A stretch of 64,000 nucleotides of DNA from Halobacillus litoralis (GTDB lineage Bacteria > Bacillota > Bacilli > Bacillales > Halobacillaceae). The position numbers and the translations under genes were made by a program. The notes under the pieces were generated by a model. That model saw nothing but the letters and a program-made list of their open reading frames with translations, had not been told where the DNA came from and searched no databases. Positions 7,879-43,641 of the stretch are shown piece after piece; the stretch's first letter is position 1; each line of letters opens with the position of its first letter. The DNA lies in NCBI RefSeq assembly GCF_004101865.1, contig NZ_CP026118.1, positions 620,001 through 684,000 of the forward strand, read 5' to 3'.

Positions 7879-8000
7879 CGTTTATGTAATGGGCGAGTTC
7901 TCTAATACTCTATTGAGCAAGACTTTGATTGGACAAATATTTATTGTTAAAGATTCACCTTCATTTCCAGAAGACTAGACTTCAGGAAAATAATATAGTA
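7879..8000 (+). repeat. Dispersed repeat copy 1 (diverged)
   Basis: It contains TTATGTAATGGGCGAG, a hairpin-like GAGTTCTCTAA..TTGAG segment, AAGACTTTGATT, and further right AGAAGACTAGACTTCAGG with AATAAT. This is the leftmost recognisable copy of the family. Confidence 0.5.
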
Positions 8001-8075
8001 AATACTATAATTATATATGGATATTTTAAGATAGCTATATAACGAAGGAAGTTATATTGCGTCTAAAAAATCCTT

Positions 8076-8360
8076 TCAGTTAATAATATTAGGAAATACT
8101 AACCAAAAAGGTATATTTATAACTAGCGGAAATGCCAAATAAAATAATGTGTCAACGTCTTTCCTTGTGCTCTTATCTAGAAATAATAAAATACAAATTG
8201 TAAATATAGGATATAAAAGAAAGCCAATAATCAAAGAAGCATTAAGAATATCCTTAGGACTGTGGCCAAGGAAACTAAACAAAGGATAAAAGCCTATTTC
8301 TGATAGGGAAAAGATTCCTATTGCCCACCAGAACCATGCAGGTTGCTTCCATTCTTTCAT
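8076..8360 (-). CDS. Small three-helix membrane protein
   Basis: This is a 94-residue protein with a GAGGGAAG Shine-Dalgarno before ATG 8360. Three hydrophobic segments can be seen (about residues 8-28, 38-60 and 72-90); the C-terminus is FWLVFPNIIN. There is no signal peptidase site and no recognised domain. Repeat copies lie immediately upstream (8407) and further upstream (8633). It is probably a real gene but functionally unassigned. Confidence 0.65.
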   Translation of the reverse strand: MKEWKQPAWFWWAIGIFSLSEIGFYPLFSFLGHSPKDILNASLIIGFLLYPIFTICILLFLDKSTRKDVDTLFYLAFPLVINIPFWLVFPNIIN

Positions 8361-8406
8361 AAATTACTTCCCTCCAAAATAAAGTCATATATAAACATGG
8401 AATAGA

Positions 8407-8462
8407 AGACAAGGCGACTTTCCTTATTGGAAAATCGCCTCCGTTTACTGAAACCTCAAAAT
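8407..8462 (+). repeat. Dispersed repeat copy 2
   Basis: The hairpin GGCGACTTTCC-TTATT-GGAAAATCGCC is followed by TCCGTTTACTGAAACCTC; the right arm is strongly diverged. Confidence 0.5.
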
Positions 8463-8632
8463 CAAAACATAAAAATGACCACTTAAAGTATTACAGGTAA
8501 AACATTCGTCACCAAACTTATTTCCCCTTTATCACCTAACTATACGTTGTATAAAGCATTAAGTTTCATTTCTTAATTACTGAACTAAACAGCTTAATCA
8601 GTTATAAATCTAAAGTGCCTGATATATCTTGT

Positions 8633-8702
8633 TCTTATGTAATAAAGGGCGAGTTCTCTATTGAGTACTCGCCCCGATTGTTTAAGATTCGAAATCAATA
8701 TA
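8633..8702 (+). repeat. Dispersed repeat copy 3
   Basis: CTTATGTAATAAA precedes the hairpin GGGCGAGTTCTC/GAGTACTCGCCC, then CGATTGTTTAAGATTCGAAATC. The hairpin is nearly perfect, while the right arm differs from consensus. Confidence 0.65.
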
Positions 8703-8865
8703 AATAAAACTAAATCATTAAATTATCTGGTATTTTGAATGATTTTTATTTACTGATCTTTGGCCAGTTCATATTCAAGATACAATCTAAATCATTTACT
8801 TGTTTGTAACTTGAAAAATTGAACACCCTCTTTTTAAATTCGTAATGAAAATAAGCTGGTCCTTC

Positions 8866-10116
8866 CTAATTGAATATTATTGGAAAAGTAAATATAACAA
8901 AAGCTGCCCAAAGTCCGTAGACCGGTAAATACTTGGTAACGGCATCTTGGATGGCTGATAGTTCGGATTTGTTTTGTAAAAAACGCATATAGGAGAACAT
9001 TATCCAAATTAGATTCACCCATATAAGTATGTTTATTCCTAAAACTGCAAATCTATTTGGAGTAATTCCAAAAGAAGAAAGTCTGAACACGATGGCTGAC
9101 AAAGCCACACTGTCGATGATGAGCGCAAGGACGATCAAGGCAACATTGATATAGTCTGAAATGTTCTTTTTCTTGTCTGAATCTCTTTCAGTTATGGAAA
9201 ATATGGTGACAACCAATACACCAAGGAGAATTCCGTTGAAAGCTATCAGGAAATTGCGGTCCAGGAACGGGTTATTCCCCACCCATATTACCGTTACAAG
9301 ATAGACTAGCAATGTAATAAGGACAAGAGGGCTGAAAATTTTCGCTAAATATGGTGTGATATTCTTAGCCAGTTTAAGATTCATTGATACCACTAGATAC
9401 GCAGCCACAATTGCGAGAGCGGCAGCACCAAATAAAACAATATTACTAAAATAGAAATCTTCTATATTCAGTCCGACAAAGCTGAATAACCGCATGGTTA
9501 ATGCTGCTAGCAACATTCCGCTGACTGCCATACTAGCGTAGAGAATACCATATTCCAAATTAAATTTAATATAGGATATTCTTCTACTGCCTTTTGAATA
9601 GCCGTCTCCTGTAAAGGCAAGCCCTACCAATATCCATAAGAAAATGGGAAGGTGTAAATATGCAAGGATTATACTGTCTGAATAGTTTAGTGGGAGCAGA
9701 TTAAGATAAACCACAGAAATGATGAGCAAAGCTGTAAGGGAATAAATAATACTTCTTTTCGGTGTATTACTATAAACAAAGTAGGCTACGATAAAGGGAA
9801 TTATACCAAAAGCCAGGTTAACCGGAGCAATTGCTTCCTGTTCGACAAAATGGAAAATGATTCTGGTGCTTATCCCGGCAAGAATAGCTAAAAGACCCAT
9901 GAATAAGAAACTCTGTTGAAACAAGGAAGGTTTATTTGTCTTCGCTGTCTCCTCAAAATGCAACCTTTCGTACCAGACACCAAGAACCTGAGAATCAGGA
10001 TGTTGTTCCCATGCGTATGAGAATGATGTTTTAAATGTTTTGGGGTCTTTCCGATACATTCTCTCCAACTCATGTGGATCAGCAATATTATTAAGAACCG
10101 AATTGTTCATATCCAT
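8866..10116 (-). CDS. DUF4153-like polytopic membrane protein
   Basis: This is a protein of about 416 residues. A soluble N-terminal segment of about 60 residues (DPHELERMYRKDPKTF, rich in charged residues) precedes eleven or so hydrophobic helices. The C-terminal pattern ALIIDSVALSAIVFRLSSFG, then TPNRFAVLGINILIWVNL and a final VYGLWAAFVIFTFP, fits DUF4153-type permease-like proteins. The function is unknown in that family. The ATG at 10116 is preferred over 10122 because AGGAGGT abuts the first ATG. It is monocistronic, and a long intergenic region lies upstream. Confidence 0.65.
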   Translation of the reverse strand: MDMNNSVLNNIADPHELERMYRKDPKTFKTSFSYAWEQHPDSQVLGVWYERLHFEETAKTNKPSLFQQSFLFMGLLAILAGISTRIIFHFVEQEAIAPVNLAFGIIPFIVAYFVYSNTPKRSIIYSLTALLIISVVYLNLLPLNYSDSIILAYLHLPIFLWILVGLAFTGDGYSKGSRRISYIKFNLEYGILYASMAVSGMLLAALTMRLFSFVGLNIEDFYFSNIVLFGAAALAIVAAYLVVSMNLKLAKNITPYLAKIFSPLVLITLLVYLVTVIWVGNNPFLDRNFLIAFNGILLGVLVVTIFSITERDSDKKKNISDYINVALIVLALIIDSVALSAIVFRLSSFGITPNRFAVLGINILIWVNLIWIMFSYMRFLQNKSELSAIQDAVTKYLPVYGLWAAFVIFTFPIIFN

Positions 10117-10410
10117 CGTCATACCTCCTCAATAATTATTAGGTGAAGCTTCGATGTATTCATTATAAATAAATATTTATCGCTTTACAATAAATTTTTA
10201 TTCTGAAATCAATTTTCGTGTGAAGCAATAAAAAGAATTTCTCATTCAAAGAAATGCTCTATAAACTTTTAACTTGTCCAATCATCTTGCCCCGTTCAGC
10301 AAGCAAAACTTTCCAAAGTAGAATTTATTTGCTAAATAGTTTTGGTTTCCTACGCATTGAATAATGACTGTTTTTATTAATCCTCATCACGGCTTCTTTA
10401 CTACAAAAAA

Positions 10411-10463
10411 AGAGCTATTCTCCTTCTTGAAGAATAGCCCCATTGGTTTACCAATTATAATTC
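10411..10463 (+). repeat. Dispersed repeat copy 4, hairpin part
   Basis: The hairpin GAGCTATTCT-CCTTCTTG-AAGAATAGC is followed by CCCATTGGTTTACC. The arm after the C-strip is not conserved. The hairpin may also act as a terminator. Confidence 0.5.
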
Positions 10464-10506
10464 TCATTATCGGTCTAACAGCGTAATATTTTTTAGGTAG
10501 TTTTAG

Positions 10507-10713
10507 TTACCATTAAATTCCAAACAATCACTTAGATTGCCAAACTTCTTACTGAATCCATAACCTACTAGTAGCATAAGTGTTTGTTGTCCGTCTTTAT
10601 TAATTTTCTCATAAAGATTGTCAAGGTCTTCTTCAGTATTCCAAGGAACAAAGATTAAGAAAAGAAGGTGTGAAGGAAAACTGATGTTTACATTACAGTA
10701 TTTATATAATGGC
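10507..10713 (-). pseudogene. Remnant of a VOC (PhnB-like) family protein
   Basis: An open stretch without a start codon ends at TAA 10507. It reads VNISF, then FVPWNTEEDLDNLYEKINKD, then a region like YGFSKKFG. This resembles the C-terminal half of small PhnB/glyoxalase-like VOC proteins, where '(D)YGFSKKFGW..D(R/K)YGVSWQL' is the usual ending; here the end is scrambled (GNLSDCLEFNGN). The N-terminal half is missing. It lies in a 680-bp gap between real genes and is read as a decayed gene. Confidence 0.55.
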
Positions 10714-10807
10714 TAAAAATGCAGAAACCCCCTCAAGTTAAGGTTTTCAGTATTAGGTTAAGAATATAATGTACGCTTGGCTTACATTATAGGAAGGACC
10801 GTGCTTT

Positions 10808-11044
10808 TTAATCCCCGTGTGAATGATAGTACTTTTCCTTATAATTTTTATATGCTATTAATGAAGAAATAGTAAAAATTTCGATAGCAATTATCCACCA
10901 AAAAACAGGTTGTATGTGGTCAATCGCGGCGCCACCAACCCCTCCATTAGCAAACTTATATAGCCATACATATTCACTCCAAATAAAAATTGCGATTAAT
11001 TGAGTGGACACCGCTAAAACAGATAGTATGATGTATTTTAGCAC
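10808..11044 (-). CDS. Small two-helix membrane protein
   Basis: This is a protein of about 78 residues if started at GTG 11044, which has AGAGGAG 8 nt upstream; the ATG at 11074 lacks a Shine-Dalgarno and would add a very basic leader (MLKKKRGVRK). Two hydrophobic segments (about 1-22 and 45-66) flank an extracytoplasmic loop with GGVGGAAID. The tail EKYYHSHGD is charged. The family is not recognised. The stretch upstream to 11190 holds nothing visible. Confidence 0.6.
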   Translation of the reverse strand: MLKYIILSVLAVSTQLIAIFIWSEYVWLYKFANGGVGGAAIDHIQPVFWWIIAIEIFTISSLIAYKNYKEKYYHSHGD

Positions 11045-11189
11045 TTTCCTAACTCCTCTCTTTTTCTTTAACATGGTTCACTGCTTTATATTAAGCCTGT
11101 ACTAGCTCAACAACGATTTATCTTTCAAAGCCATCTTTAGATATGGAATATGTTTGTCATTTACAATTACTCTATTTATTTCTCAATTG

Positions 11190-11795
11190 TCAGAGTGCTT
11201 TTCGCTGATAAATAACATGGGAGATGCTCCATGAAATCACATAGACGATCACCCCACTAAGCACTGCTCCTGTATATAAAAACTGTACTGATAAATTTGC
11301 TAGAAAATCCGTTAGAGGAGTAAAATGGGTTCCCAAATATAAAAGAATGGAAGGTCCGATACCTGCCAATACAAGAAAAGATACAAGAACGATTGTGAAT
11401 ATATAACCTTGTTTAAAGATATAGAACAATGGAAAGGTGAACGCAGAAAAGGTTAAGAACAGACCGCTTCCGATCGCAATATCCCTTATGGTAAACGGTT
11501 TATCCATTAAGAATAAAGCCAGACTTGATAGTGCAATGGCCAGGATCATGTATATGACAGCACCCAGATAGCGTGAAGAAATAATTTCCTTTCGTGTATA
11601 AGGCAAGGAGTTCAATAATAAGTTTGTCTCCGCTTTTTCATCATAAGCATAAGCATTAAAGGGGATGAAAATACTTGCAACGAGAAATGTCAAAACTGGG
11701 TGTGAATTTGTGAAAATAAAGAATAAAATAAAAGGAATGAAGAACAGCAACTGTCTCTTTTGTAAAATAACATCACGTCTAATCAAATTAAACAT
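11190..11795 (-). CDS. ABC-2 type transporter permease
   Basis: This is a 201-residue permease with six predicted helices and no ATPase motif. The basic N-terminus (FNLIRRDVILQKRQL) and the loop DEKAETNLLLNSLPYTRKEIISSRY, containing the 'LLNSLP(Y/V)(T/S)R..IV..RY' pattern, are typical of the ABC-2 permeases paired with YtrA-regulated ATPases. Its ATG overlaps the end of the ATPase gene (11788), so it is translated as part of a three-gene operon: GntR regulator, ATPase, permease. It presumably forms the membrane part of an exporter for an antimicrobial or cell-envelope compound. The last gene of the operon. Confidence 0.85.
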   Translation of the reverse strand: MFNLIRRDVILQKRQLLFFIPFILFFIFTNSHPVLTFLVASIFIPFNAYAYDEKAETNLLLNSLPYTRKEIISSRYLGAVIYMILAIALSSLALFLMDKPFTIRDIAIGSGLFLTFSAFTFPLFYIFKQGYIFTIVLVSFLVLAGIGPSILLYLGTHFTPLTDFLANLSVQFLYTGAVLSGVIVYVISWSISHVIYQRKAL

Positions 11796-12654
11796 TCTGC
11801 TTCTTTCCTTTCAAATAATACATAATTTCTTCGAGAGAAGCCCGCTCGAGGACAACTGCATCTCCGAAAGTATATTCCACCGTCTTCACATTGTCCGTTA
11901 AAGCGTGAAACCCTGTTGATGCACGGTGAACTTGCACAAAGCATTGTTCCGTGTCCCGATCAAGAAGGTCCAATCCCCCTTTTACTACCGCATAATGTTC
12001 AGAAATATCCTGGATGGACTTACTAAATACTAATTCCCCGCTCTGGATAAATGCTATGTAATCTGCGATACGATCAAGATCAGTCGTAATATGGGTTGAG
12101 AAGAAAATAGTTCTTTTACCATCGATCATGACCTCCTGCAAAAGGCTCAACAGCTCCCGTCTAAAATTGGGATCTAATCCAGATGTCGGTTCATCCATAA
12201 TGATTAACTCTGCATGATGAGATAAAGTGATCGCCAAGGATGCTTTCATCTGCATTCCTTTTGAGAAAGTTTTTATTGCTTTGTTAAGAGGTAAGTCAAA
12301 CTGTTCGACATACTTGTAAAATAAAGGATCATCCCACTGTTTGTACGCAGGGCCTACTATTCGCCTTATATCTTTTAGGTTCAACCCTTCAAAGAACACA
12401 TTTCCATCGTACACAAACCCAATGCGTTCCTTTATCTCCTTCTCATGTGTCTTGAAATCCAACCCAAACACCTTAACGTCCCCACTATCTGGCTTTAACA
12501 AATTCATCATCATTTTTATCGTTGTCGATTTGCCTGCCCCATTTTCTCCAATGAAACCAGTGATAAAGCCTTGCTTCACTTGTAGATCAATGCTTTCTAC
12601 AGAAAATTCCTTGAATTTCTTCGTTGCATTTCTTAATTCAATCACATTCTTCAT
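11788..12654 (-). CDS. ABC transporter ATP-binding protein (YtrB-like)
   Basis: This is a 288-residue ATPase with Walker A GENGAGKST, Q-loop region VYDGNVFFEGL (the usual Gln is replaced by Asp-Gly, as in several YtrB-type ATPases), signature FSKGMQMK, Walker B LIIMDEPTSGLD, and switch His in STHIT. The C-terminal 70 residues form the regulatory extension common to drug-export ATPases. GAGGAGTG, inside the last codons of the GntR gene, sets ATG 12654; the ATG 15 nt upstream is less well spaced. It is translationally coupled to both neighbours. The expected role is to power export of a cell-wall-active compound; the substrate is unknown. Confidence 0.9.
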   Translation of the reverse strand: MKNVIELRNATKKFKEFSVESIDLQVKQGFITGFIGENGAGKSTTIKMMMNLLKPDSGDVKVFGLDFKTHEKEIKERIGFVYDGNVFFEGLNLKDIRRIVGPAYKQWDDPLFYKYVEQFDLPLNKAIKTFSKGMQMKASLAITLSHHAELIIMDEPTSGLDPNFRRELLSLLQEVMIDGKRTIFFSTHITTDLDRIADYIAFIQSGELVFSKSIQDISEHYAVVKGGLDLLDRDTEQCFVQVHRASTGFHALTDNVKTVEYTFGDAVVLERASLEEIMYYLKGKKQNV

Positions 12655-12658
12655 GTAT

Positions 12659-13030
12659 TCACTCCTCATATAAGGTCTTTAATAATTGTTGTAGTTCATC
12701 AAGTGTGATTCCCATGTCCCGGGCGTTGGCTATGACTGCATTTAACTGACCTTCCATAGCTTTAAGCTTCCTCTCTCTAATGACCTCTAAATTCTGCTCG
12801 GCGACGAACGATCCCTTGCCGACGATGGAATAGATAAAGCCCTCCTTTTCAAGCTCTTCATAGGCACGTTTGGTCGTGATCACACTGATTTGTAAATCTT
12901 TGGCTAACTGGCGAATGGACGGTAGAGCCGCCCCCTCATACAGGTCATCTGCTAAAATAGAAGATTTAACTTGTTTCGTAATTTGTTCATATATCGGCTC
13001 CTTCGATTTATTGGAGATAATGATCTGCAT
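12659..13030 (-). CDS. GntR/YtrA-family repressor
   Basis: This is a 123-residue member of the YtrA subfamily, which has only a winged helix-turn-helix (about residues 10-75: PIYEQITKQVKSSI, LPSIRQLAKDLQIS, RAYEELEKEGF, GKGSFV) and a short helical C-terminus for dimerisation. YtrA-type regulators autorepress the operon of an ABC exporter, relieved by antibiotics that target the envelope. It is first in the operon, immediately upstream of the ATPase, with a palindromic AT-rich promoter region in front, consistent with autoregulation. Confidence 0.9.
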   Translation of the reverse strand: MQIIISNKSKEPIYEQITKQVKSSILADDLYEGAALPSIRQLAKDLQISVITTKRAYEELEKEGFIYSIVGKGSFVAEQNLEVIRERKLKAMEGQLNAVIANARDMGITLDELQQLLKTLYEE

Positions 13031-13072
13031 GCTAATCCCTCTTTTTTTGTATCCTGGCTTTGCAGGATATAA

Positions 13073-13131
13073 TGTATATATACTATATATACTATATATA
13101 CATTATATACACAGATCAAGTCCCTCGACAA
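13073..13131 (-). promoter_or_regulatory. Promoter and probable operator of the YtrA-type operon
   Basis: On the minus strand, TTGTCG (13126-13131) and TATAAT (13102-13107) are 18 bp apart. The stretch 13073-13110 just downstream is an imperfect palindrome of repeated TATATAC/GTATATA units, a plausible GntR operator overlapping the transcription start. The assignment to this repressor is inferred. Confidence 0.55.
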
Positions 13132-13254
13132 CCACTAATTGGATAATTTTACATAAAAAACAACGAGATCATTCTCTTTTTTGTAAATGTTACACAAACA
13201 AGAGAAATGTCCCGATGTATGCCTAGGAAGTTACTCTCAAGACAATTTACGTGC

Positions 13255-13325
13255 TTATGTAAAGTATTTGCCCAGTGTTCAATTAAACACTGGGCAAATA
13301 CTTCAAGTTTCGATATCAAGTAATC
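13255..13325 (+). repeat. Palindrome related to the dispersed repeat family (copy 5)
   Basis: A near-perfect 16-bp inverted repeat GTATTTGCCCAGTGTT/AACACTGGGCAAATAC with a 5-nt loop is followed by TTCAAGTTTCGATATCAAG, which is similar in kind to the conserved right arm. CTTATGTAAA precedes it, as in other copies. It may also act as a terminator. Confidence 0.5.
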
Positions 13326-13375
13326 TCAGGTAAATCTCCAACTAATCCACCCTATAGTAATTGAATAAGTTTACC

Positions 13376-13518
13376 CTACTTTATAAAAGGACTCCACAGC
13401 CGTAAAAAGCATAATATAATTGCCCCTATTCCTATTTTGGCGCCCCTTGATGAGTTCAACTGCCGTTAGCATAATAAATACAATAACTACAAATATGCAT
13501 CCCGGTAAAATAGGTCAT
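13376..13518 (-). pseudogene. Decayed small membrane-protein gene
   Basis: After a plausible AAGGGTG and ATG (13518), a membrane helix (IFVVIVFIMLTAVELIKGR) and a C-terminal part (IGIGAIILCFLRLWSPFIK, ending TAG 13376) lie in different frames. At least two frameshifts separate start, helix and tail. Each fragment is protein-like but no single frame joins them. The family is unknown and this reading is tentative. Confidence 0.35.
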
Positions 13519-13533
13519 TTAATCACCCTTTTT

Positions 13534-13568
13534 AAAAAAAGACACGTAGCGTTTACGTGTCTTTTTTC
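13534..13568 (-). terminator. Strong intrinsic terminator of the XRE/ABC operon
   Basis: The stem AAAAAGACACGTA/TACGTGTCTTTTT has a 5-nt loop region and flanking A/T runs. The last codons and stop of the XRE gene lie within the stem. Confidence 0.85.
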
Positions 13569-13759
13569 TCCTGCCAGAACAGGTCATCCAGCGACTTATC
13601 AAGCACCCAGCAAATCGATAAGCAAAGCTGGAGTGATGGGTTGTATTTCCCTAGCTCAATCAGCCCGATCGTCTGCCTGGAGACACCGACTGTCTTGGCC
13701 AATTCCTGTTGGGATAAATCATGTTCGGCGCGAGCCATTTTAAGTTTTTTATTCTTCAT
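13553..13759 (-). CDS. XRE-family transcriptional regulator
   Basis: This is a compact helix-turn-helix protein of about 68 residues of the Xre/YozG type: RAEHDLSQQELAKTVGVSRQTIGLIELGKYNPSLQLCLSI forms helices 1-5, and the tail is LDDLFWQEKKD. A TTG at 13765, one base after the upstream stop, is an alternative start. It is the last gene of the four-gene ABC operon (ATPase, permease, DUF6773-like, XRE), an arrangement common in Bacillales, where the regulator probably controls its own operon. There is no effector domain. Confidence 0.85.
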   Translation of the reverse strand: MKNKKLKMARAEHDLSQQELAKTVGVSRQTIGLIELGKYNPSLQLCLSICWVLDKSLDDLFWQEKKDT

Positions 13760-13765
13760 GTCCAA

Positions 13766-14278
13766 TCACCGCACATCTTCATCATCATCCAATTGCGCGT
13801 CATTGACGCGATCACTTTTATTTTTTGCCAGTTTATATGGCACTACTATTATCCCAAGCATCACAGGAATATAGATTGCCATGCAAGTGAAGAAGATCAT
13901 CAAAAAGAAAGAAATCTCTTCGCCAGCACTATCTGCATAGCGCTGGGAGTTCCTGATTGCAAGTGTAAGCGAAAACCCAATCCCTACAACCAGACTGACA
14001 ATGAAATTTTTCTTGTTCAGCTTTATTTTACTGGATCGATCATGCATCTCCACTTCATCAGAGAATATTCCTAGACTGGATACGCGGATCAGGTAGTAGA
14101 CTCCTCCGCCAATAAGGATGATTAACTCCGTCCAAATATTCCGATCATCGTTAATCGTTTTTATTATAAGCGATAACACCGCGACTATGGTGACAAACAT
14201 GTACAGCTCACGGTAGACTTTATTTTGAAGGTTGGTGACGCGCTCATCCTGCTGTTTCCTTCTGAAACCGATATTCAT
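13766..14278 (-). CDS. DUF6773-like membrane protein
   Basis: This is a protein of about 170 residues with four hydrophobic helices in two pairs (about 26-42, 52-68, 90-110 and 125-148). The basic N-terminus (GFRRKQQDERVTNLQNKVYRE) and acidic C-terminus (DDDEDVR) resemble the DUF6773 proteins found next to XRE regulators. The GGAGG in the intergenic gap puts the start at the second ATG (14278). It sits between the permease and the XRE gene with almost no gap. It may modulate the transporter or the regulator, but the function is unknown. Confidence 0.7.
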   Translation of the reverse strand: MNIGFRRKQQDERVTNLQNKVYRELYMFVTIVAVLSLIIKTINDDRNIWTELIILIGGGVYYLIRVSSLGIFSDEVEMHDRSSKIKLNKKNFIVSLVVGIGFSLTLAIRNSQRYADSAGEEISFFLMIFFTCMAIYIPVMLGIIVVPYKLAKNKSDRVNDAQLDDDEDVR

Positions 14279-14288
14279 CTTCATCCTC

Positions 14289-15008
14289 CTAGTAATCAGT
14301 TTTTGGGAGTTTGTAATAGGCGAAAAGGAATAAAAGTAGATTTACAAGTATAATCACCGTCATTTCTGAATTGGACAGCGCAAGGAATGGCACTTGGCTC
14401 GGCAGGCTGTACAGGGGAGAAAAGGCGACGATATCCTTCATGAATGCTGGAATCGCGTCGACGCGGAATACCATCCCAAGAAGCCCTGGAAGCACGAGTA
14501 TGAACATCAGTGCTAACACAAGCAGGTTCATGGCTTTTTGGTAATACATCGAAATGATCATGAACAATAATGTGAAAAATGTTCCGAAGAATACGTAGTG
14601 AAGAAGGGATGCACGGACATCCGTCCACATGAACGCCTGGCTGTTCCAGAGGTGGTTCACATATAACAACGCACTGCAGCCGATTCCGAAGAGAAGTGAT
14701 ACGACTCCGATGACGACCACGCGTGAAAGCAGGAAGCGGAGTCGGTCCTTTGTCGATTTGAAAAAAAGATAGATCGTTCCGTAATGTAAATCTGCAATAA
14801 CCATTTTAGCACAATAAATCCCTAGTGCTACCGTAGCAATTGACGCGTAAAGTCCGGCAACGTTTCTTGGCTGGAATGGGCCACCGAGCTCGTGGATCGA
14901 ATAGATGATCCCCCCGCCGAGCGCAAGAGAAAGGCTGATCGATAATACCAGGTGCATGCTGATGACATTTCTCCGCAGTTCCAAAACTAGCAATTGTGAA
15001 AAGTTCAT
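14289..15008 (-). CDS. ABC-2 type transporter permease (BcrB-like)
   Basis: This is a 239-residue integral membrane protein with six helices. The N-terminal LLVLELRRNVISMHLVLSI is the cytoplasmic-to-membrane entry typical of bacitracin/lantibiotic-type permeases, and a GTIYLFFKSTKDRLRFLLSRV loop follows helix two. Its ATG overlaps the stop of the ATPase gene at 15005 (ATGA), which shows strict coupling. With the ATPase it would form a full exporter, two half-transporters per complex. The exported compound is unknown. Confidence 0.85.
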   Translation of the reverse strand: MNFSQLLVLELRRNVISMHLVLSISLSLALGGGIIYSIHELGGPFQPRNVAGLYASIATVALGIYCAKMVIADLHYGTIYLFFKSTKDRLRFLLSRVVVIGVVSLLFGIGCSALLYVNHLWNSQAFMWTDVRASLLHYVFFGTFFTLLFMIISMYYQKAMNLLVLALMFILVLPGLLGMVFRVDAIPAFMKDIVAFSPLYSLPSQVPFLALSNSEMTVIILVNLLLFLFAYYKLPKTDY

Positions 15009-17138: not shown

Positions 17139-19064
17139 CTATTTACCATATAATTCTTTATTGGTAATTGACTGTTTTAGGTTTGAAACGAATTCATCTA
17201 ATTTCATTTCTCTAGTTGCCTTCTCCCCATAGGATCTAACATTTACATGACCTTTCTCAACTTCCTTGTCCCCCAGCACAAGAATAAAAGGTGTTTTGGT
17301 CATTTGGGCTTCTCTAATTTTGTATCCTAACTTCTCATCTCTACCATCCTTTTCTACTCTTATTCCTTCTTGTTTCAATCGGTTAGTGACTTCTTCCGTA
17401 TAGTCTTTATGAACTTCGTTTGATACTGGGAGTACTTTTACTTGAACAGGTGCTAACCAAGTAGGAAATGCTCCACCGAAATGCTCAATGAGTATGCCTA
17501 AAAAGCGATCAATGGAGCCAAACACAGCCCGGTGGATAACCACTGGACGAACTTTTTCATTATGTTCATTAATATATTCCAGATCGAATTTTTCTGGCAT
17601 TTGGAAATCCAGTTGTACGGTTGCACATTGATGACTTCTATTCAATGCATCTTTTATGTGGATATCAATCTTAGGACCGTAGAAAGCACCGTCTCCCTCA
17701 TTCACTCTAAAATCATATTCCAGTTTCTCTAATACATTTTTAAGCGCGCCTTCAGCTTGAGCCCATAAGTGTTGGTCACCCATAGACTTTTCAGGTCGAG
17801 TAGATAACTCAATTTCATAATTGAATCCGAATGTTCGATAAACATTATCAATCAACTGCAAGGCTAAAGTGATTTCCTCTTCTATCTGATGAGGTGTGAC
17901 AAAGATATGAGCATCGTCTTGACAAAAGGAACGGACTCTCAGTAATCCGTTCAATGCTCCACTGAATTCATGACGGTGAACTTGACCGAATTCAGCCATA
18001 CGAATAGGAAGGTCTCTATAGGAGCGCAAACGGTCCTTAAAAATAAGCATATGTCCTGGACAATTCATTGGTTTAAGAGCGAATTGCTGCTGGTCAACTT
18101 CAGAGAAGTACATATTGTCTTTATAATGATTCCAGTGCCCCGATTGTTCCCATAACCTCTGATTCATCATTAGGGGCGTTTTCACTTCTTTATAATTAAA
18201 CGATTCTTGCAAACTTCTAAGGAATGATTCCAACTCATTTCTTATCACCTGCCCATTGCTTAAATAGAATGGCATCCCTGGAGCTTCATCTGAAAACATA
18301 AACAATTCAAGCTGTTTCCCTAATTTACGGTGATCTCTCTTTTTGGCTTCTTCCACAAAATAAAAGTATTCATTGAGTTCTTTTTTTGATGGGAAAGCTA
18401 CGCCATATATTCGTTGTAACATCTCATTATCACTATTCCCCAGCCAATAAGCCCCCGAGATATTTGTTAAGGAAAAAGCTTTTAGAAATTTAGTTGACGG
18501 TAAATGGGGACCTCTGCATAGATCTATAAATTCACCTTGTTTGTAAATGGAGACCTCTTCTTTCTGAGGAATTTTCTTTAATAGCTCTAGCTTTAAATGA
18601 TCATTCGAAAAAATGCTTTCAGCTTCATCTCGAGATATTAACTCCCGTTTAATAAACAAGTCCTCAGCTACAATGTTATTCATTTCTTTTTCAATTTTAG
18701 ATAGATCGTCTTTAGATATACTATGATCAGTATCAATGTCATAGTAAAAACCATTTTCCACAACAGGACCTACACCTAAATTCACCATTCCAAAAAGACG
18801 CTTAACGGCCTGAGCCATAATATGAGTTGCAGTATGCCTCATCACCTCTAAACCCTCTGGAGAATCAAGGGGAAATAATTCAATCTCAGCATTAATGTTG
18901 ATAGGTCTCTGCATATCATATAAGGATCCATTGACTCTCCCGACTACCGACTTTTTCTTAAGACTAGGACTTATAGATTGGGCAACATCCCCCAATGTAC
19001 TTCCTTTTGAAAAAGATTTTCGGCTACCATCTGGAAACGAAATCACCATTTTTTCATGACTCAT
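17139..19064 (-). CDS. thrZ: Threonyl-tRNA synthetase (ThrZ-like)
   Basis: This is a complete class II synthetase of 641 residues that charges tRNA-Thr. The N-terminal TGS domain (FPDGSRKSF, about 1-62) is followed by the editing domain with HTATHIMAQ and CRGPHLPS, by the catalytic core with zinc ligands in MNCPGHM, VHRHEFSG and VIHRAVFGS, and by the C-terminal anticodon-binding domain (from about 540). Motif 2 reads GQVHRHEFSGALNGLLRVR. The tandem T-box leaders and the sequence type suggest the starvation-induced second enzyme (ThrZ) rather than the housekeeping ThrS, but both share the fold and only a tree would decide. It lies alone. Confidence 0.85.
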   Translation of the reverse strand: MSHEKMVISFPDGSRKSFSKGSTLGDVAQSISPSLKKKSVVGRVNGSLYDMQRPININAEIELFPLDSPEGLEVMRHTATHIMAQAVKRLFGMVNLGVGPVVENGFYYDIDTDHSISKDDLSKIEKEMNNIVAEDLFIKRELISRDEAESIFSNDHLKLELLKKIPQKEEVSIYKQGEFIDLCRGPHLPSTKFLKAFSLTNISGAYWLGNSDNEMLQRIYGVAFPSKKELNEYFYFVEEAKKRDHRKLGKQLELFMFSDEAPGMPFYLSNGQVIRNELESFLRSLQESFNYKEVKTPLMMNQRLWEQSGHWNHYKDNMYFSEVDQQQFALKPMNCPGHMLIFKDRLRSYRDLPIRMAEFGQVHRHEFSGALNGLLRVRSFCQDDAHIFVTPHQIEEEITLALQLIDNVYRTFGFNYEIELSTRPEKSMGDQHLWAQAEGALKNVLEKLEYDFRVNEGDGAFYGPKIDIHIKDALNRSHQCATVQLDFQMPEKFDLEYINEHNEKVRPVVIHRAVFGSIDRFLGILIEHFGGAFPTWLAPVQVKVLPVSNEVHKDYTEEVTNRLKQEGIRVEKDGRDEKLGYKIREAQMTKTPFILVLGDKEVEKGHVNVRSYGEKATREMKLDEFVSNLKQSITNKELYGK

Positions 19065-25510: not shown

Positions 25511-25612
25511 CTTTAACACAAAAGGGAATAGCACTGTGCAGCTATCCCCTTTTTTCACAAGACTTGAATTCGAGATATCTTGAAGTAGATCTTAAACTAA
25601 CGCACTCGTTAA
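25511..25612 (+). repeat. Dispersed repeat copy 7
   Basis: GGGAATAGCACTGTGCAGCTATCCCC hairpin, then TTTTTTCACAAGACTTGAATTCGAGATATC and, further right, CTAACGCACTCGTTAAATTAAG. This is one of the best copies and shows the additional 'AACGCACTCGTTA' tail. Confidence 0.75.
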
Positions 25613-28060: not shown

Positions 28061-28140
28061 CCTGATGTATTAGAGGCGAGCACTCTATTAAACCATAGCT
28101 CCCTTTTTTATAAGATTCGAGCCCGAGATATTTTGTATGA
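28061..28140 (+). repeat. Dispersed repeat copy 9
   Basis: ATGTATTAGAGGCGAGCACTC ... CCCTTTTTTATAAGATTCGAGCCCGAGATATT. The hairpin is damaged; the right arm is clear. Confidence 0.6.
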
Positions 28141-28674: not shown

Positions 28675-28738
28675 CAAGCATGATAACACGATTAAACACT
28701 CGCCCCTTTTCTTGAAGACTTGAATTCAAGATAATACA
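28675..28738 (+). repeat. Dispersed repeat copy 10
   Basis: ACACTCGCCCCTTTTC precedes TTGAAGACTTGAATTCAAGATAATAC. The left hairpin half is degraded; the right arm is near consensus. Confidence 0.7.
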
Positions 28739-28954: not shown

Positions 28955-29012
28955 AGACGGTGCCTGCCCCCCATCTTTAACAGTGGTAAAGGAGGGGGGG
29001 CAGGCACCGCCA
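28955..29012. repeat. GC-rich perfect palindrome (GGTGCCTGCCCCC)
   Basis: Arms CGGTGCCTGCCCCC and GGGGGCAGGCACCG (28958-28971, 28996-29009) pair perfectly around a 24-nt loop. Lies directly downstream of the general-stress protein gene and may double as terminator. A decayed relative lies at 29811. Confidence 0.7.
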
Positions 29013-30340: not shown

Positions 30341-30396
30341 TAAACTAACGGCCCTGTTACAGCAAGACTTGATTTCGAGATACTTACTGTGAGATA
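30340..30396 (+). repeat. Dispersed repeat copy 11
   Basis: TAAACTAACGGCCCTGTTACAGCAAGACTTGATTTCGAGATAC. The arm is near-consensus, and 'AACTAACG' recalls the tail of copy 7. No hairpin. Confidence 0.7.
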
Positions 30397-31174: not shown

Positions 31175-31245
31175 GTAAAAGAAAAGGCGACTATTCTTAT
31201 TGAATAATCGCCCCCCATATCTTGAATATTCGAGATCGAGATATT
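31175..31245 (+). repeat. Dispersed repeat copy 12
   Basis: GGCGACTATTCTTATTGAATAATCGCC hairpin, CCCC, then ATATCTTGAATATTCGAGATCGAGATATT. The hairpin is intact; the arm is slightly diverged. Confidence 0.7.
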
Positions 31246-32087: not shown

Positions 32088-32128
32088 AAAGCCCCTTTTC
32101 AGGAAGACTTGATTTCAAGATAATTTAT
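32088..32128 (+). repeat. Dispersed repeat copy 13 (right half)
   Basis: GCCCCTTTTCAGGAAGACTTGATTTCAAGATAATT. C-strip and arm are near consensus, but the hairpin is absent. Confidence 0.65.
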
Positions 32129-32992: not shown

Positions 32993-33062
32993 CATGTAAT
33001 GGGGGAAAGTCTTATTCAACATTCGCCCCCGTTTCATTAAGACTCAGTATCGAGATAATTTA
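32993..33062 (+). repeat. Dispersed repeat copy 14
   Basis: CATGTAATGGGGGAAAG, then CATTCGCCCCCGTTTCATTAAGACTCAGTATCGAGATAATT. The C-strip and arm are clear. Confidence 0.7.
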
Positions 33063-33514: not shown

Positions 33515-33610
33515 AGGCAATCCAATCTTCATGAATTCCCCCCGTTTTTATAAGACTTGATTTCGAGATAATTGAAGGATATTCTCACCTCACGCTCTCG
33601 TTACTTAAAC
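33515..33610 (+). repeat. Dispersed repeat copy 15
   Basis: TCCCCCCGTTTTTATAAGACTTGATTTCGAGATAATTG, then CACCTCACGCTCTCGTTACTTAAAC. The arm is a near-perfect match and the tail 'ACGCTCTCGTTA' parallels copy 7. Confidence 0.75.
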
Positions 33611-36079: not shown

Positions 36080-36136
36080 TAGGGTTATGTTAAGCAGTTG
36101 CCCCCAATACAAGAAGATTCGTAATCAAGATATTAT
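36080..36136 (+). repeat. Dispersed repeat copy 16
   Basis: TTATGTTAAGCAGTTGCCCCC, then AATACAAGAAGATTCGTAATCAAGATATT. The C-strip is intact; the arm differs at a few bases. Confidence 0.6.
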
Positions 36137-36152
36137 TTCATAAGCTACGTAA

Positions 36153-36290: not shown

Positions 36291-36422
36291 ATACCACCCT
36301 CTTTTAAAGTGCTTAGGATCCATTGTCTTTTCCGTTAAGATAAACCACAATTTCATCATACATATATAGTTACATAATGGATAAACTGAAGGTTAGACCA
36401 CATTTGATTTGGAGTGAAGACA

Positions 36423-37433: not shown

Positions 37434-37914
37434 AATAGTAGAGGATAAAAGCAAAGTTCTTGAAGCAATTTTTTGGAGTATTGCATTGCCTGGCTTTGCA
37501 CAAATCCTAAATGGAAAGATAATAAAGGGTTTTTTGTTTATTGTTATAGAAATTTTCATTAATGTTAAATCAAACTTTAATGAAGTAATTTATTTAAGTT
37601 TCCATGGAAGAATTGAGGAAGCTATTATACAAACAGATTATCAGTGGTTAATGTTTTATCCTTGTTTGTATATGTTTGTTATGTGGGATGCATTTAAAGA
37701 TGCTGGGGGCGGAAAGGAACCATATGCATTTATTCCCTTTGCCTTTTCTGCATTTTCTGTAACGATTGGTTTGATATATTCCTCAACGTTTGAAATTGGT
37801 GGTGTTCTATTGGGTTCAATGTGGCTACCTATACTGTTCTTACCTATTGGAATAGTCTTTGGAAAATTGATTAGGTCCATTGTTCTAAAAAATTTTTATA
37901 GCCAAAGAGGATAG
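37411..37914 (+). CDS. Four-helix membrane protein
   Basis: This is a 167-residue protein. It has KVLEAIFWSIALPGFAQIL (first helix, with the 'A(L/I)PG.GQ.' pattern of DUF5683/TM2-like proteins), then FLFIVIEIFINVKSN, and two C-terminal helices (FIPFAFSAFSVTIGLIY, LPILFLPIGIVFGKLI). It overlaps the DUF3231 gene, so the pair is probably co-translated. Function unknown. The start is a GTG at 37411 or the adjacent ATG. Confidence 0.65.
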   Translation: MMNYPKNEIVEDKSKVLEAIFWSIALPGFAQILNGKIIKGFLFIVIEIFINVKSNFNEVIYLSFHGRIEEAIIQTDYQWLMFYPCLYMFVMWDAFKDAGGGKEPYAFIPFAFSAFSVTIGLIYSSTFEIGGVLLGSMWLPILFLPIGIVFGKLIRSIVLKNFYSQRG

Positions 37915-37995
37915 TTTTGGTATCAATTCAAAATACACAAAATTTATGTTTATACTTTTGTATAAAGGGTACATCACCATAGACGCAGGATTGAT

Positions 37996-38020
37996 AAGGG
38001 GCTATATGCCCCTTTTTTTA
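37996..38020 (+). terminator. Intrinsic terminator
   Basis: GGGGC-TATAT-GCCCC followed by seven T. Ends the DUF3231/membrane-protein operon. Confidence 0.8.
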
Positions 38021-38357
38021 TGAATTTTATAACATAACAGGGTCCTTTTTATTCTTAAATGCTTTTGAAGTCTGTTTCATTACAACTAAAAAGCAAAAAG
38101 TTAATGATTTTGGATTTTTTCAGATGACCTGGCCAGTAAGTTGCTGAAGGTATTTTAAAGTGGCTGCATTTACTGTCCCAAAGATCAAATCTTACAGGTG
38201 AACATTTTATATTAAAGGTGTAACTTCACCTCTTCATAAGTCTATATGACTTCTTGAACAGGTCAAAACCCTTCTTACCAAATACTAAAACATATAAAAG
38301 AGACCGCATTCAGAGAGACTTTTCTCCCTGAATGCGGGGTATATACTCTATTCCCCT
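38021..38357. other. Gene-free stretch
   Basis: No convincing gene in about 330 bp. Contains a hairpin CCGCATTCAG ... CTGAATGCGG at 38303-38338 that may be a terminator or the left part of a degraded repeat. Frames are interrupted on both strands. Confidence 0.4.
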
Positions 38358-38406
38358 ACTTTAACAATCGCCCCCAATTGTTTAAGACTCGACTTCAAGG
38401 TATCAA
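38358..38406 (+). repeat. Dispersed repeat copy 17
   Basis: CTTTAACAATCGCCCCCAATTGTTTAAGACTCGACTTCAAGGTATC. The C-strip and arm match well; the hairpin is missing. Confidence 0.65.
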
Positions 38407-38420
38407 CCTTAAAAGAGTCC

Positions 38421-38594
38421 TTACACTCCCATTATTAATGGAAAATAATTTATAAAAGTAAACCATCCAAAGGAAGCTAAACTTAATGTTAGCACGGTAA
38501 GTGACAAATAAGGATGATAACCTGAATTTTGTATTTGGAATATTATGGATCCCAAAATACTTACTACAAATATGAATCGCTAGATCACATTCAT
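38421..38594 (-). pseudogene. Small membrane protein gene with an early stop
   Basis: From ATG 38594 the frame reads MNVI, then TAG, then RFIFVVSILGSIIFQIQNSG and a second helix with LTVLTLSLASFGWF, ending TAA 38421. The protein after the stop is a clean two-helix membrane protein, so a single base change probably broke the gene. No alternative start with a Shine-Dalgarno follows. Confidence 0.5.
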
Positions 38595-38629
38595 TAGATT
38601 AGACAGCCTAATTCCAACTCAATCCTTTT

Positions 38630-38668
38630 TCCCCAAAAAAGAGGCTTATCCTTTCTACAGATAAGCCA
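38630..38668 (-). terminator. Intrinsic terminator of rph
   Basis: GGCTTATC-TGTAGAAAG-GATAAGCC followed on the minus strand by TCTTTTTTGGGG. Lies about 40 bp past the rph stop codon. Confidence 0.8.
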
Positions 38669-38710
38669 CCTTTAGTAATAACATCTTTTTTACTGTAAGG
38701 TATTCAACGA

Positions 38711-41320
<2,610 letters not shown>

Positions 41321-41496
41321 TTATCGTTCTCAATGCTAAGGTAAAGCAATTAAAAAAAGAGTTCATCTTATCAACTAATTATGTCCGTTTAAATGTCTCA
41401 TCGAAGTAGCAACATCACTTGTCTAATACTACCAATTTAAATAAATAAAAAACAGACTAAGAATGTTTAATGAATCGTGATATAATTAAATTAGAG

Positions 41497-41539
41497 AAAA
41501 GGACAGTTACTGATTATTTATCGTAACTGTCCTTTTTTG
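41497..41539. terminator. Hairpin with T-tails upstream of rph
   Basis: AAAAGGACAGTTAC ... GTAACTGTCCTTTT with T-runs on both sides. On the minus strand it lies between the secreted-protein gene and rph, 190 bp ahead of the rph start, so it is either a terminator for the upstream gene or an attenuator in the rph leader. Confidence 0.7.
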
Positions 41540-41694
41540 TAACAAATATAATTGAAACTATCTATCCTTCCTCTATAAAGAAAAGAGAATATTACGATAC
41601 CTCCTTGTTTTGTCAGGACTGCCCGGCAGGATCAAAGCAATCGCCTTAGATATCAGAAGCCACTTTCACAATATCCTACTCACAACTTATTAAC

Positions 41695-41833
41695 CATCTC
41701 GGAACTGAGTCTTCAACTATTCTGATCCGTTAGCACGATAAGCGATAGCCACTGTGCAGCTATCGCCCCCATTTACGGAAGACTTGATTTCGAGATATAT
41801 TTGAATTGATTTTCAATAACGCACCTGTTTAGG
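41695..41833 (+). repeat. Dispersed repeat copy 18, most complete
   Basis: Left arm ATCTCGGAACTGAGTCTTC, hairpin GCGATAGCCACTGTGCAGCTATCGC, C-strip CCCCC, right arm GAAGACTTGATTTCGAGATA, then CAATAACGCACCTGTTTAGG. The arms are inverted repeats of each other with a few mismatches. Confidence 0.8.
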
Positions 41834-41879
41834 TCCTCTTTTACTTTAGTTACCCATTAACTTAATTAAGCAAATACTA

Positions 41880-42458
41880 TTATTGAAATGGACTTTTCTT
41901 CTTACTAGGATAATCAATTGAGTTAGCTATTTTAACTAATACTTCAGCATTGACCTTATCAGAAGCCCTTTTATCAATACTAAACATGTATTGCCAATCA
42001 TCCCTCTCAAAAACTAATGCATAAGGCCCTCTACTAAACTTCATATAGACTGCTTTATTCCCGTTCTTTAGGTTAACCTTTTTAACAATATACTTATCTG
42101 GGATTTGAATTTTATGCTCGATAGGTCGAACGTCTATTTTGTAATGATTTCCAGGTGATTCCTCACTTATGAACGTCAGTTCTAAAGAATCATTTATGTC
42201 GCCATCTAAATCACTAAATCTTCCCAAATAATGAGTAAAAGTTATAGGTGGAATTCTAAGTGGCAACTTTAAGTCTCGGTTATAATGTTCTTCAAATTCT
42301 TTTATAGCTTCTTCAGCCGTTGTATACCCGCCATATTCAGGATAGAATTCCTCTATGGGTTTAGGTTTATCGTTAGAATTTGCATTTACTGTTCCATGGT
42401 TCCCTCCCCAAAAGAAAGTACTGAAAATGATTAATAAAAGAGATATACATTTCTCCAT
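41880..42458 (-). CDS. Secreted protein, DUF4367-like
   Basis: This is a 192-residue protein with an N-terminal signal peptide (MEKCISLLLIIFSTFFWG, then a likely cleavage after NVNA-type residues around 27). The mature part is a beta-rich domain: FTHYLGRFSDLDGDINDSLE, VKKVNLKNGNKAVYMKFSRG, ALVFERDDWQYMFSID, VLVKIANSIDY. This resembles the DUF4367 outer-sporulation/anti-sigma-type module, but the match is weak. Presumably exported. Start ATG 42458, with GGGTGG upstream. Located next to repeat copy 18. Confidence 0.55.
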   Translation of the reverse strand: MEKCISLLLIIFSTFFWGGNHGTVNANSNDKPKPIEEFYPEYGGYTTAEEAIKEFEEHYNRDLKLPLRIPPITFTHYLGRFSDLDGDINDSLELTFISEESPGNHYKIDVRPIEHKIQIPDKYIVKKVNLKNGNKAVYMKFSRGPYALVFERDDWQYMFSIDKRASDKVNAEVLVKIANSIDYPSKKKSPFQ

Positions 42459-42559
42459 ATAATACCACCCTAAAATTATATTTAGGCGTATTATTAACAG
42501 TTAATTAACAACTATTCTTTCTGCACTAACCTGGTCGTTAGTTCATAAAAAAAGGTCCA

Positions 42560-42605
42560 AACCGTTATTCCTGATTTGCCCCCGTTAGTTTAATTAGGTG
42601 TTATG
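42560..42605 (+). repeat. Dispersed repeat copy 19 (weak)
   Basis: TTATTCCTGATTTGCCCCCGTTAGTTTAATTAGG. Has the C-strip and the TTAGTTTAA piece but no hairpin and no arm. Confidence 0.35.
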
Positions 42606-42676
42606 CAAAAATGATCATTAACTCTTAATTATTGTAATGTCCTCTTATTTCAGAATACAATATCCAAACATTTGTT

Positions 42677-43174
42677 TTAAAAAAGAAAAAATATGCCAAA
42701 AAACAACACTACAGTCCATATAAAGGAAATATGTATGCTTTTGTTAATACGATTGTTATTTCTTTGTTTTTTGTGCTCAATCGAAAAAATAAATAGGAAT
42801 ATTAAAAAGAGAAAATATATAAGGAAGAAATATAGGAGTGACCTCCACTGTTCAATCCAGCTCATAATGGGTCCAATAGTTCCACCCACCAAGAATAGAA
42901 TTACGGATAAAACACCTACTGAGATACTAATTTTGGGCATCAAACTCCAAAAGGATCGTTCAAAAATATTGTTTCTCTTTTTTGCCTCAAACAAAAATAT
43001 TAAATAGATGCAAGATAAAACTGCTGTTACGATACTAAATGTGATGTAAACATTATTCACGGGGGTCCAACCAGTCGAAGAGCTTACCAGTCTGCTAACA
43101 GCAACCAATTCTAAAGTTGCCATCAATACTCCTATAACACCCACTGTCAGGATTTGAAGTACTAACCATTTCAC
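42677..43174 (-). CDS. Four-helix membrane protein
   Basis: This is a 165-residue protein. Helices: LVLQILTVGVIGVLMATLELVAV; VYITFSIVTAVLSCIYLIFLF; ISISVGVLSVILFLVGGTIG; LLYFFLIYFLFLIFLFIF; a last SFIWTVVLFFGIFFLF. A basic loop (EHKKQRNNNRINKS) separates the last two. Family not recognised. GGGGGTGTT precedes ATG 43174. Lies between repeats 19 and 20. Confidence 0.6.
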   Translation of the reverse strand: MKWLVLQILTVGVIGVLMATLELVAVSRLVSSSTGWTPVNNVYITFSIVTAVLSCIYLIFLFEAKKRNNIFERSFWSLMPKISISVGVLSVILFLVGGTIGPIMSWIEQWRSLLYFFLIYFLFLIFLFIFSIEHKKQRNNNRINKSIHISFIWTVVLFFGIFFLF

Positions 43175-43254
43175 TTTCTAAACACCCCCTAACCATATAC
43201 GTATAAGTACACAAAAGTTCTAATAACGTCCTCATTTCTAATCTCCCACCTCTT

Positions 43255-43300
43255 TTATTAAAGACCCCGTTGCAGGAAGACTTGAATCCGAGGTATATCT
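43255..43300 (+). repeat. Dispersed repeat copy 20 (right half)
   Basis: TTATTAAAGACCCCGTTGCAGGAAGACTTGAATCCGAGGTATATC. The arm is near consensus. Confidence 0.65.
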
Positions 43301-43321
43301 TATTGTTTTACCATATGACTC

Positions 43322-43507
43322 TTATCGAAAAAATAAGGAATAAATTATAAACCCAGCTACTATTTGGAAAATAAATATACCAGTTCCCTTCCAGCCTAAG
43401 CCACCAACTAAATCTGCAAGGTTACTTCCGTGACCACTACTTGAAGGATTGCTTAACTCTTTTTGTCTTAGTCTTTCTCTTCTTTCTCCAGGTGTTTCAT
43501 TTCCCAT
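43322..43507 (-). CDS. DUF6366-like small membrane protein
   Basis: This is a 61-residue protein: MGNETPGERRERLRQKELSN, then a Ser/Gly-rich spacer, NLADLVGGLGWKGTGI and one helix FIFQIVAGFIIYSLFF. The 'NETPxxRRERLRQKEL ... NLADLVGGLGWKGTGI' pattern matches the DUF6366 family common in Bacillus. Function unknown. TTAGGAGGAAT lies before ATG 43507. The gene is preceded and followed by repeat copies. Confidence 0.75.
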   Translation of the reverse strand: MGNETPGERRERLRQKELSNPSSSGHGSNLADLVGGLGWKGTGIFIFQIVAGFIIYSLFFR

Positions 43508-43579
43508 CTAATTCCTCCTAAAATCATTTCTCTTATTACACACATACGATACTAATCCAAATTAGTTTCAAAACGCCTA

Positions 43580-43641
43580 ATATCTCGAAACTGAGTCTTC
43601 CACAAACCTGCCCTTTAGCTGAAGACTCAGTTTCGAGACAT
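43580..43641 (+). repeat. Dispersed repeat copy 21, palindromic arms only
   Basis: ATCTCGAAACTGAGTCTTC, a 20-nt loop CACAAACCTGCCCTTTAGCT, GAAGACTCAGTTTCGAGA. The two arms pair perfectly over 18 bp; the internal hairpin is absent. This is the rightmost copy seen. Confidence 0.75.

Follow-up and report, generated by a model that had tools for sequence, protein, structure and literature searches.

In the window, that is, the whole 64-kb stretch of DNA analysed here, an array of short repeated elements lies between genes that are mostly on the minus strand. A complete element consists of a hairpin end, a C-strip spacer and an arm close to GAAGACTTGATTTCGAGATA. With up to three mismatches, this arm has eight matches in the window, seven of them on the plus strand (none in each of 100 shuffles), and the single minus-strand match is the second arm of a palindrome at 43.6 kb. 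A scan for a C strip plus arm gave 15 places; the one at 42887 was left out (weak arm, within an ORF) and the one at 43613 belongs to the palindrome and is counted apart. All 13 accepted array sites read on the plus strand, and the one-orientation repeats perceived in the initial annotation are real.

Seven of these sites are located at 25544-25577 (arm start 25559; hairpin, spacer and arm, with a second core, AACTAAC-GCACTC-GTTA, at about 25595-25611), 28701-28733 (arm start 28715), 30349-30382 (30364), 32090-32122 (32104), 33538-33570 (33552), 41765-41797 (41779; perfect hairpin GCGATAGC..GCTATCGC) and 43263-43295 (43277; the site closest to the palindrome). The other six are located at 8670-8702 (arm start 8684; hairpin end, C-strip spacer and arm), 28098-28130 (28112), 31211-31243 (31225; full hairpin), 33025-33057 (33039), 36100-36132 (36114) and 38370-38402 (38384).

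Other places among the 21 copies originally listed turned out to be decayed, partial or arm-less. For instance, a decayed arm with two mismatches is present at 7.97 kb (7971-7989, plus strand). Reading by eye, the hairpin is present and the arm decayed or absent at 8.4, 10.4, 13.3 and 16.9 kb, a partial arm without C strip occurs at 25.86 kb, and at 42.6 kb the C strip is followed by GTTAGTTTAATTAG. The latter (core GCCCCC-GTTAGTTTAATTA, 42578-42596, plus strand) is an arm-less form known from other genera, in which GTTAG follows the spacer; no relationship to attC is claimed. An additional decayed site at about 6.36 kb had been missed when the first 7.8 kb were described as free of copies. 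The predominance of minus-strand genes is true but unspecific: among ORFs of at least 80 aa, 198 of 250 on the array side of palindromes of this type lie on that strand, and so do 184 of 251 on their other, chromosomal side. Since the flank bias is nearly equal, gene direction was dropped as evidence. The attC sites of integrons fold as single strands with R and L boxes; in the present sites the hairpin upstream of the core has a mean z of -1.37, with 33% below -1.5, against -0.40 and 16% on the arm side (mononucleotide shuffles). Rfam at gathering thresholds detected two T-box leaders and no other RNA family in the window.

The array ends on the right in a 60-bp palindrome (43581-43640), hereafter the cap, with 22-nt arms that are 95% complementary. 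Thus, what had been taken for a further one-way repeat at 43.6 kb is a different structure, in which 19-bp arms face each other around CCACAAAC-CTGCCC-TTTAGCTG, and which is a putative docking site. The window genome contains exactly three caps, each marking the upstream boundary of a repeat cluster. Across 26 cap loci of this genome and its relatives, oriented by the asymmetric centre of the cap itself, comparison reveals a strong polarity: 137 of the 138 strict repeats on the array side share one orientation and one is opposite, while 258 kb on the chromosome side contain no strict site. The expected clustering is thus found on one side of the caps, although it is incomplete, since some arm copies are scattered elsewhere over the chromosome. 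A former cap half, now interior, is found at 41696-41726 on the plus strand (inverted arm plus CAACTATT-CTGAT; repeat family D18), and interior cap halves occur at seven places in other arrays. A predicted ECF-sigma-like promoter motif, TGAAAC-N16-CGTA, lies 10 nt from the cap and points into the array (43545-43570, minus strand). Such motifs accompany eight of 27 caps, on the array side, against a background of 13 in 3892 windows, which suggests that the cap-proximal genes may be expressed from an ECF-type promoter. In the best reading, the repeats are the junctions between cassettes of a polarised array.

The chromosomal flanks of the cap loci fall into syntenic groups, whereas the array side is, on comparison, a mosaic of exchanged blocks. 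Locus size varies as well: one chromosomal locus carries about 2 kb or 47 kb of array, depending on the relative. These strong differences at a shared locus, and the clustering on one side of the caps, support the proposal of a gene-capture zone with cassette-like layout. The clearest exchange is a block of 1849 bp (41765-43613, plus strand) that is 100% identical to the interior of L073, an array from another genus. Both of its ends fall at 6-bp spacers, GCCCCC and CTGCCC, and at CTGCCC the identity stops without the arm being continued in L073. Altogether, 39 of 108 block ends lie at cores. Uniform random placement gives a mean of 4.2 and a maximum of 12, which is too easy a control; placement in non-ORF DNA is fairer and still supports the enrichment at spacers (mean 11.4, maximum 26 in 2000 trials). 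A flank gene of group 2 is present in 32 of 44 family genomes. Five genomes that have this gene and no known cap there (G016, G009, G012, G017 and the window genome, G000) yielded no cap and one arm-like match, in G017; a clean cap-free empty site was not found among these five, their neighbouring genes being too different. The pattern of block ends would fit a movement of the cassettes by site-specific recombination.

The repeats could instead have spread in some other way, the genes being shuffled by homologous recombination between them without a site-specific recombinase. Exchange inside an arm common to two repeats would likewise produce apparent block ends close to a repeat, and since the repeats are partly alike, their edges would coincide with some ends in any case. 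The 69 block ends located away from cores agree with this explanation and count against capture, as does the lack of a recombinase at most cap loci. However, RecA-type recombination usually needs longer homology than a 19-bp arm plus spacer, and the block shared with L073 ends at CTGCCC with no common arm beyond it. Homologous shuffling predicts neither the polarity at caps nor the recombinase found beside caps in relatives, and we regard it as improbable.

In the comparison of relatives, a 280-aa XerA/XerC-like tyrosine recombinase adjoins the cap in four genomes. All four full-length recombinases of 84-100% identity adjoin a cap, three of which have both arms and one is a hybrid. No recombinase was noted alongside 25 of 27 cap loci among the ORFs listed. 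The statement that no integrase is present holds for the window but not for these relatives. Among the eight tyrosine recombinases of the window genome there is no intact orthologue, only a remnant. With three caps but no more than this remnant, the genome probably has arrays that are frozen or served in trans, the caps being inactive or dependent on an incoming recombinase. The residues K162, H229, R232, H255 and Y264 are invariant among 30 recombinase homologues and R138 is nearly so; we take these six to be the catalytic residues. Two of the proteins score 102.5 and 95.6 bits with the integron-integrase model TIGR02249, whose cut-off is 265, in agreement with the earlier view that this is not a standard integron. 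The XerC and XerD equivalog cut-offs are missed as well (214.2 bits against 335.2 and 211.6 against 329.6, respectively). Among PDB entries, XerA/XerD (1e-37 and 2e-35) are closer than IntI4 (2e-15), and in a tree the recombinase forms its own clade beside the XerC/D-like pair of the window genome.

At the loci L065 and L062 the cap region is accompanied by genes for an M78 peptidase and an integrase of the ICE type (ICE, integrative conjugative element), and the same neighbours are found at the remnant in the window genome; a cap with array is also carried by a 136-kb contig, C2. These observations fit a serial-insertion hotspot belonging to ICEs or plasmids, where the recombinase mainly integrates or resolves the element and the cassettes are by-products. 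Other caps, however, lie in ordinary stretches of chromosome beside long arrays, and the first ORFs listed there include none of these genes, so that this explanation appears unlikely.

Relatives of the recombinase occur patchily across the order, and some of them are accompanied by arrays whose core sites are similar. Among 299 genomes of the order, 66 contain the core AACTAACCTGCCCGTTAGTT, whereas the reversed control is found in 6. At four recombinase loci of other genera, picked for having sites, these lie on one strand per locus (10/10, 8/8, 4/4 and 3/3). How sites and recombinase are arranged relative to each other varies between loci; most of the 18 recombinase loci examined have few matches to the two core patterns. 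Outside the family, 11 genomes have recombinase and core, 16 the recombinase only, 14 the core only and 65 neither, a modest co-occurrence (p 0.017, uncorrected for kinship). Within the family, 4 genomes have both recombinase and cap, 3 the recombinase only, 14 the cap only and 22 neither. The recombinase was found in one of 299 genomes of a phylum sample at E 1e-90, belonging to the order, and in 4 of 72,556 plasmid records at E 1e-80.

The window probably holds a single array belonging to an integron-like system of cassette capture that does not use IntI. From the sequence patterns we infer the agent, the order of events and the exact strand cuts as follows. The fixed chromosomal cap (inverted 19-bp arms, an AAC-CTGCCC-GTT/TTT-type core and a 6-bp spacer) would be the entry point of new DNA, and the incoming DNA would bear cassette-type core sites formed by a hairpin end and GCCCCC or GCACCC. 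Exchange would fall at the spacer. Repeated insertion at one place would pile up cassettes to one side of this entry point, all with co-oriented sites, and leave the other side unchanged. The enzyme would most likely be the 280-aa recombinase, acting in cis or in trans, and in the window genome it may arrive on an ICE or plasmid. Against this model, the spacers of cap and cassettes differ in sequence, which is unusual for simple tyrosine recombination.

Like integrons (IntI, attI and attC, including superintegrons and CALIN), the proposed system combines a primary site with a one-sided, co-oriented array of many small accessory genes. In both, a tyrosine recombinase lies by the primary site in some genomes, other genomes have recombinase-free arrays, and cassettes are exchanged between loci and species. 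In contrast to integrons, the recombinase is nearer to XerA/XerD, the cap is a palindrome with a 6-bp spacer, and the cassette site is made of a hairpin end, spacer and arm. The system is also found in Bacillales, a group with almost no known integrons according to the available text of one survey (PMC9024848). IntI carries a specific helix inserted in its catalytic domain, as described in an excerpt of PMC8138268. With Xer/dif and Xer-using mobile elements the recombinase shares size and build, but it has its own clade and a patchy distribution, and is accompanied by arrays of sites. In dif as in the cap, a 6-bp centre separates the two inverted halves of the core.

MITEs and the REP or bcr-type repeats of Bacillus are also short, repeated, intergenic and partly palindromic, and the scattered arm copies would suit such an element with a preferred landing zone. 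However, a MITE should insert in either orientation, and here orientation to the cap is fixed and what moves is the stretch separating two copies rather than a copy by itself. This one-way polarity and block exchange speak against the MITE or mobile intron offered as an alternative in the initial annotation, and make any MITE-like or REP-like element very improbable. Transcription terminators of the usual kind, or common intergenic repeats separating small genes, would explain the hairpin ahead of the C strip at many sites, some followed by T residues in gene direction, but are highly unlikely given the clustering at caps, the absence of strict sites from their chromosome side and the conservation of arm and spacer beyond the hairpin.

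Integrons are the textbook gene-capture platform. They are nearly absent from Firmicutes, where IntegronFinder 2.0 gives one complete integron, in Limnochorda, and a few CALIN, as far as the available text of the source goes (PMC9024848). A literature search, with preprints and most subscription papers outside it, gave no description of a system like the present one, and novelty in print is not claimed. We somewhat favour the view that it is an independent Bacillales counterpart of integrons, built on a Xer-derived recombinase and a palindromic docking site, with long one-way arrays, sometimes an envelope-stress (ECF) promoter, sometimes an ICE or plasmid as carrier, non-matching spacers and perhaps one-strand exchange. 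If true, it would provide a second system for testing the requirements of cassette capture and a new site-specific recombination tool, and such a convergent platform would account for the pool of strain-specific small genes in Bacillales.

The initial annotation described dispersed repeats sharing one orientation, and this holds: the window contains 13 array sites, each made of a hairpin end, a C-strip spacer and a 19-bp arm, all on the plus strand, besides decayed or arm-less ones, and the arm count far exceeds chance. The window corresponds to C1:620001-684000 of the source genome (4.28 Mb, two contigs, C1 and C2). Throughout this genome, the arm gives 69 strand matches with up to two mismatches, palindromes being counted twice, and the reversed control gives none. 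Clustering is incomplete: clusters lie at 628-664 and 811-823 kb of C1 and at 113-124 kb of C2, and the other arms are scattered. The consensus of 168 sites reads roughly as an A-rich stretch, GGCGATTNTTCTTATTGAACAATCGCCCCC, 8 variable bases and AAGACTCGAWTTCGAGATA, with weak column-wise conservation in the hairpin part. A separate dispersed family with the same arm is scattered in this genome (loci L013, L014, L020, L024 and L030) and has, by eye, a cap-type half site following GAGAGTTATTCAGTTATA.GGCAGGATT. The window also carries, at 28958-29009, a 24-nt inverted repeat with 88% complementarity, 4 nt between its arms and long C/G runs (GGTGCCTGCCCCCC), which the array sites do not account for.

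The array is closed by a palindromic cap (43581-43640) in which 19-bp arms face each other around CCACAAAC-CTGCCC-TTTAGCTG. Three exact caps are present in the source genome, each closing the upstream end of a cluster. The cap motif GAAACTGAGTCTT-N12..30-AAGACTCAGTTTC was found in 19 of 150 genomes including the source (19/44 within the family, 0/106 outside it), a survey of exact matches that misses decayed caps. Array sites are more widespread than caps, GCCCCC-N7..9-arm being found in 29 of the 44 family genomes. C2 (135.7 kb; L032, L033), perhaps a plasmid, also bears a cap, at 112.9 kb, with array sites extending to 124 kb. Cap-type halves also occur in the interior, at seven places on array sides, all in plus orientation, and at one on a flank; these are probable remnants of earlier caps. 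The motif TGAAAC-N16..17-CGTA, starting on the array side at a distance of 10-12 nt from the cap, is present at 8 of 27 loci (background, 13 of 3892 windows).

When cap loci were fetched and each was oriented by the asymmetric centre of its cap, the repeats of 20 loci lay to the left (array side) in plus orientation; a four-mismatch scan of these 20 added two weak matches on the right, chromosomal side (L061, L074) and one reverse match on the left (L074). With up to three mismatches and caps excluded, 26 loci gave 137 plus and one minus match on the left (289,439 bases) and none on either strand on the right (257,727 bases). L090 was left out of this count because its cap is divergent.

All-against-all comparison of 27 loci showed that right flanks match over kilobases within groups (L063/L068/L076; L064/L075/L078/L079/L088; L070/L073), or over about 1 kb in L061/L065, and that left sides share displaced blocks. 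For instance, the window and L073 share 1849 bp, 100% identical, a block that begins at GCCCCC, stops at CTGCCC and has differing surroundings on both sides, and L063 and L075 share 4.37 kb (99.8%) that ends at the cap, beyond which the chromosomal loci differ. Junctions were inspected for 19 of 81 blocks. Among 108 distinct ends of 28 array-side blocks, 39 fall at cores (the 6-bp spacer with its half sites) and 69 do not. In 2000 trials, uniform random placement gave a mean of 4.2 (maximum 12), and the fairer placement in non-ORF DNA a mean of 11.4 (maximum 26), which lowers the excess from about ninefold to about threefold, still beyond all trials. For the 88 ends outside ORFs, 35 are at cores versus 9.5 in the control (maximum 19).

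Array size can differ greatly at one chromosomal position. The flanks of the group-2 cap locus match on both sides between G007 and G008 (90% over 4221 bp and 88.6% over 2845 bp) but enclose about 2.2 kb in G007 versus about 47 kb in G008. The former holds a decayed cap and one site (up to four mismatches), and the latter 44 matches, namely 42 forward sites, a weak reverse match and the cap.

Genes between the window sites include those for an ABC2-type membrane protein, DUF6773, DUF2812, PadR, GNAT, AHSA1, 3-dmu-9_3-mt/glyoxalase-like, DUF3231 and PNPOx-like proteins and a PEP-utilising enzyme. The site-poor stretch at 16.9-25.5 kb carries genes for threonyl-tRNA synthetase (17139-19064), an Nramp transporter, an aldehyde dehydrogenase, a DHDPS-like protein and a GntR regulator; two tandem T-box leaders (Rfam RF00230; 19116-19342 and 19372-19593) precede the synthetase gene.

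A 280-aa tyrosine recombinase adjoins the cap in G010 (L061), which shares the genus of the source genome, and in G008 (L065). It narrowly passes the XerA-type model (225.6 versus a cut-off of 220 bits; the related protein P0002, with 218, is just under) and is below the XerC, XerD and integron-integrase cut-offs. In a tree with the eight tyrosine recombinases of the source genome its family is separate (support 99/99), with long outgroup branches. At E 1e-50, 34 of the 150 genomes, representing 27 of 74 genera, contain relatives, some of them only 39-44% identical or broken. A cap lies close to each of the four full-length copies of 84-100% identity. In L099, L101 and L102 the cap lies 100-168 bp past the recombinase stop, and that of L100 is a hybrid with one array-type arm. 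Outside the family, an uncontrolled by-eye reading finds a core-like motif past the stop in 9 of 18 loci (L104, L108, L109, L110, L112, L113, L115, L117 and L119). In L099-L104, of which L103 and L104 belong to other families, the interval from stop to core contains a conserved TGAAATAATTGGTATTAA-like stretch.

Sites without the 19-bp arms, of the form CTTATTGAAC..TC-GCACCC/GCCCCC-GTTAG or ..AACTAAC-CTGCCC-GTTAG, accompany recombinases of other genera in L133 (8 sites), L136 (10), L137 (4) and L140 (3); most of the rest of the 18 recombinase loci have few matches. Sites are one-stranded within each of these four loci, on the recombinase strand in L133, L136 and L140 and on the opposite one in L137. 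The core AACTAACCTGCCCGTTAGTT, with up to two mismatches, occurs in 66 of 299 genomes of the order (reversed control, 6).

From this comparison of assemblies a mechanism can be proposed in which the recombinase would bind the cap and a cassette core, and exchange at the spacer would insert the incoming DNA so that the chromosomal half-cap lies on one side of it and the older array on the other. Units end in either a hairpin or an inverted arm. Since incoming blocks carry an inverted arm and CTGCCC at their end, each insertion would recreate a palindromic cap in the original position and push the older array away from the chromosome. Action in trans, tolerance of spacer mismatches and the role of the arms are inferred.

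The search of 150 genomes detected no relative of the recombinase at E 1e-50 in the source genome. At C1:1789271-1791380 (L036, L095), a degenerate cap at 1789271 adjoins a recombinase fragment matching residues 16-57 (55% identity). Its neighbours, an M78 peptidase gene and an ICE-type integrase gene, are those also located after the intact recombinase of L065, and therefore the cap/recombinase platform may be carried on ICEs.
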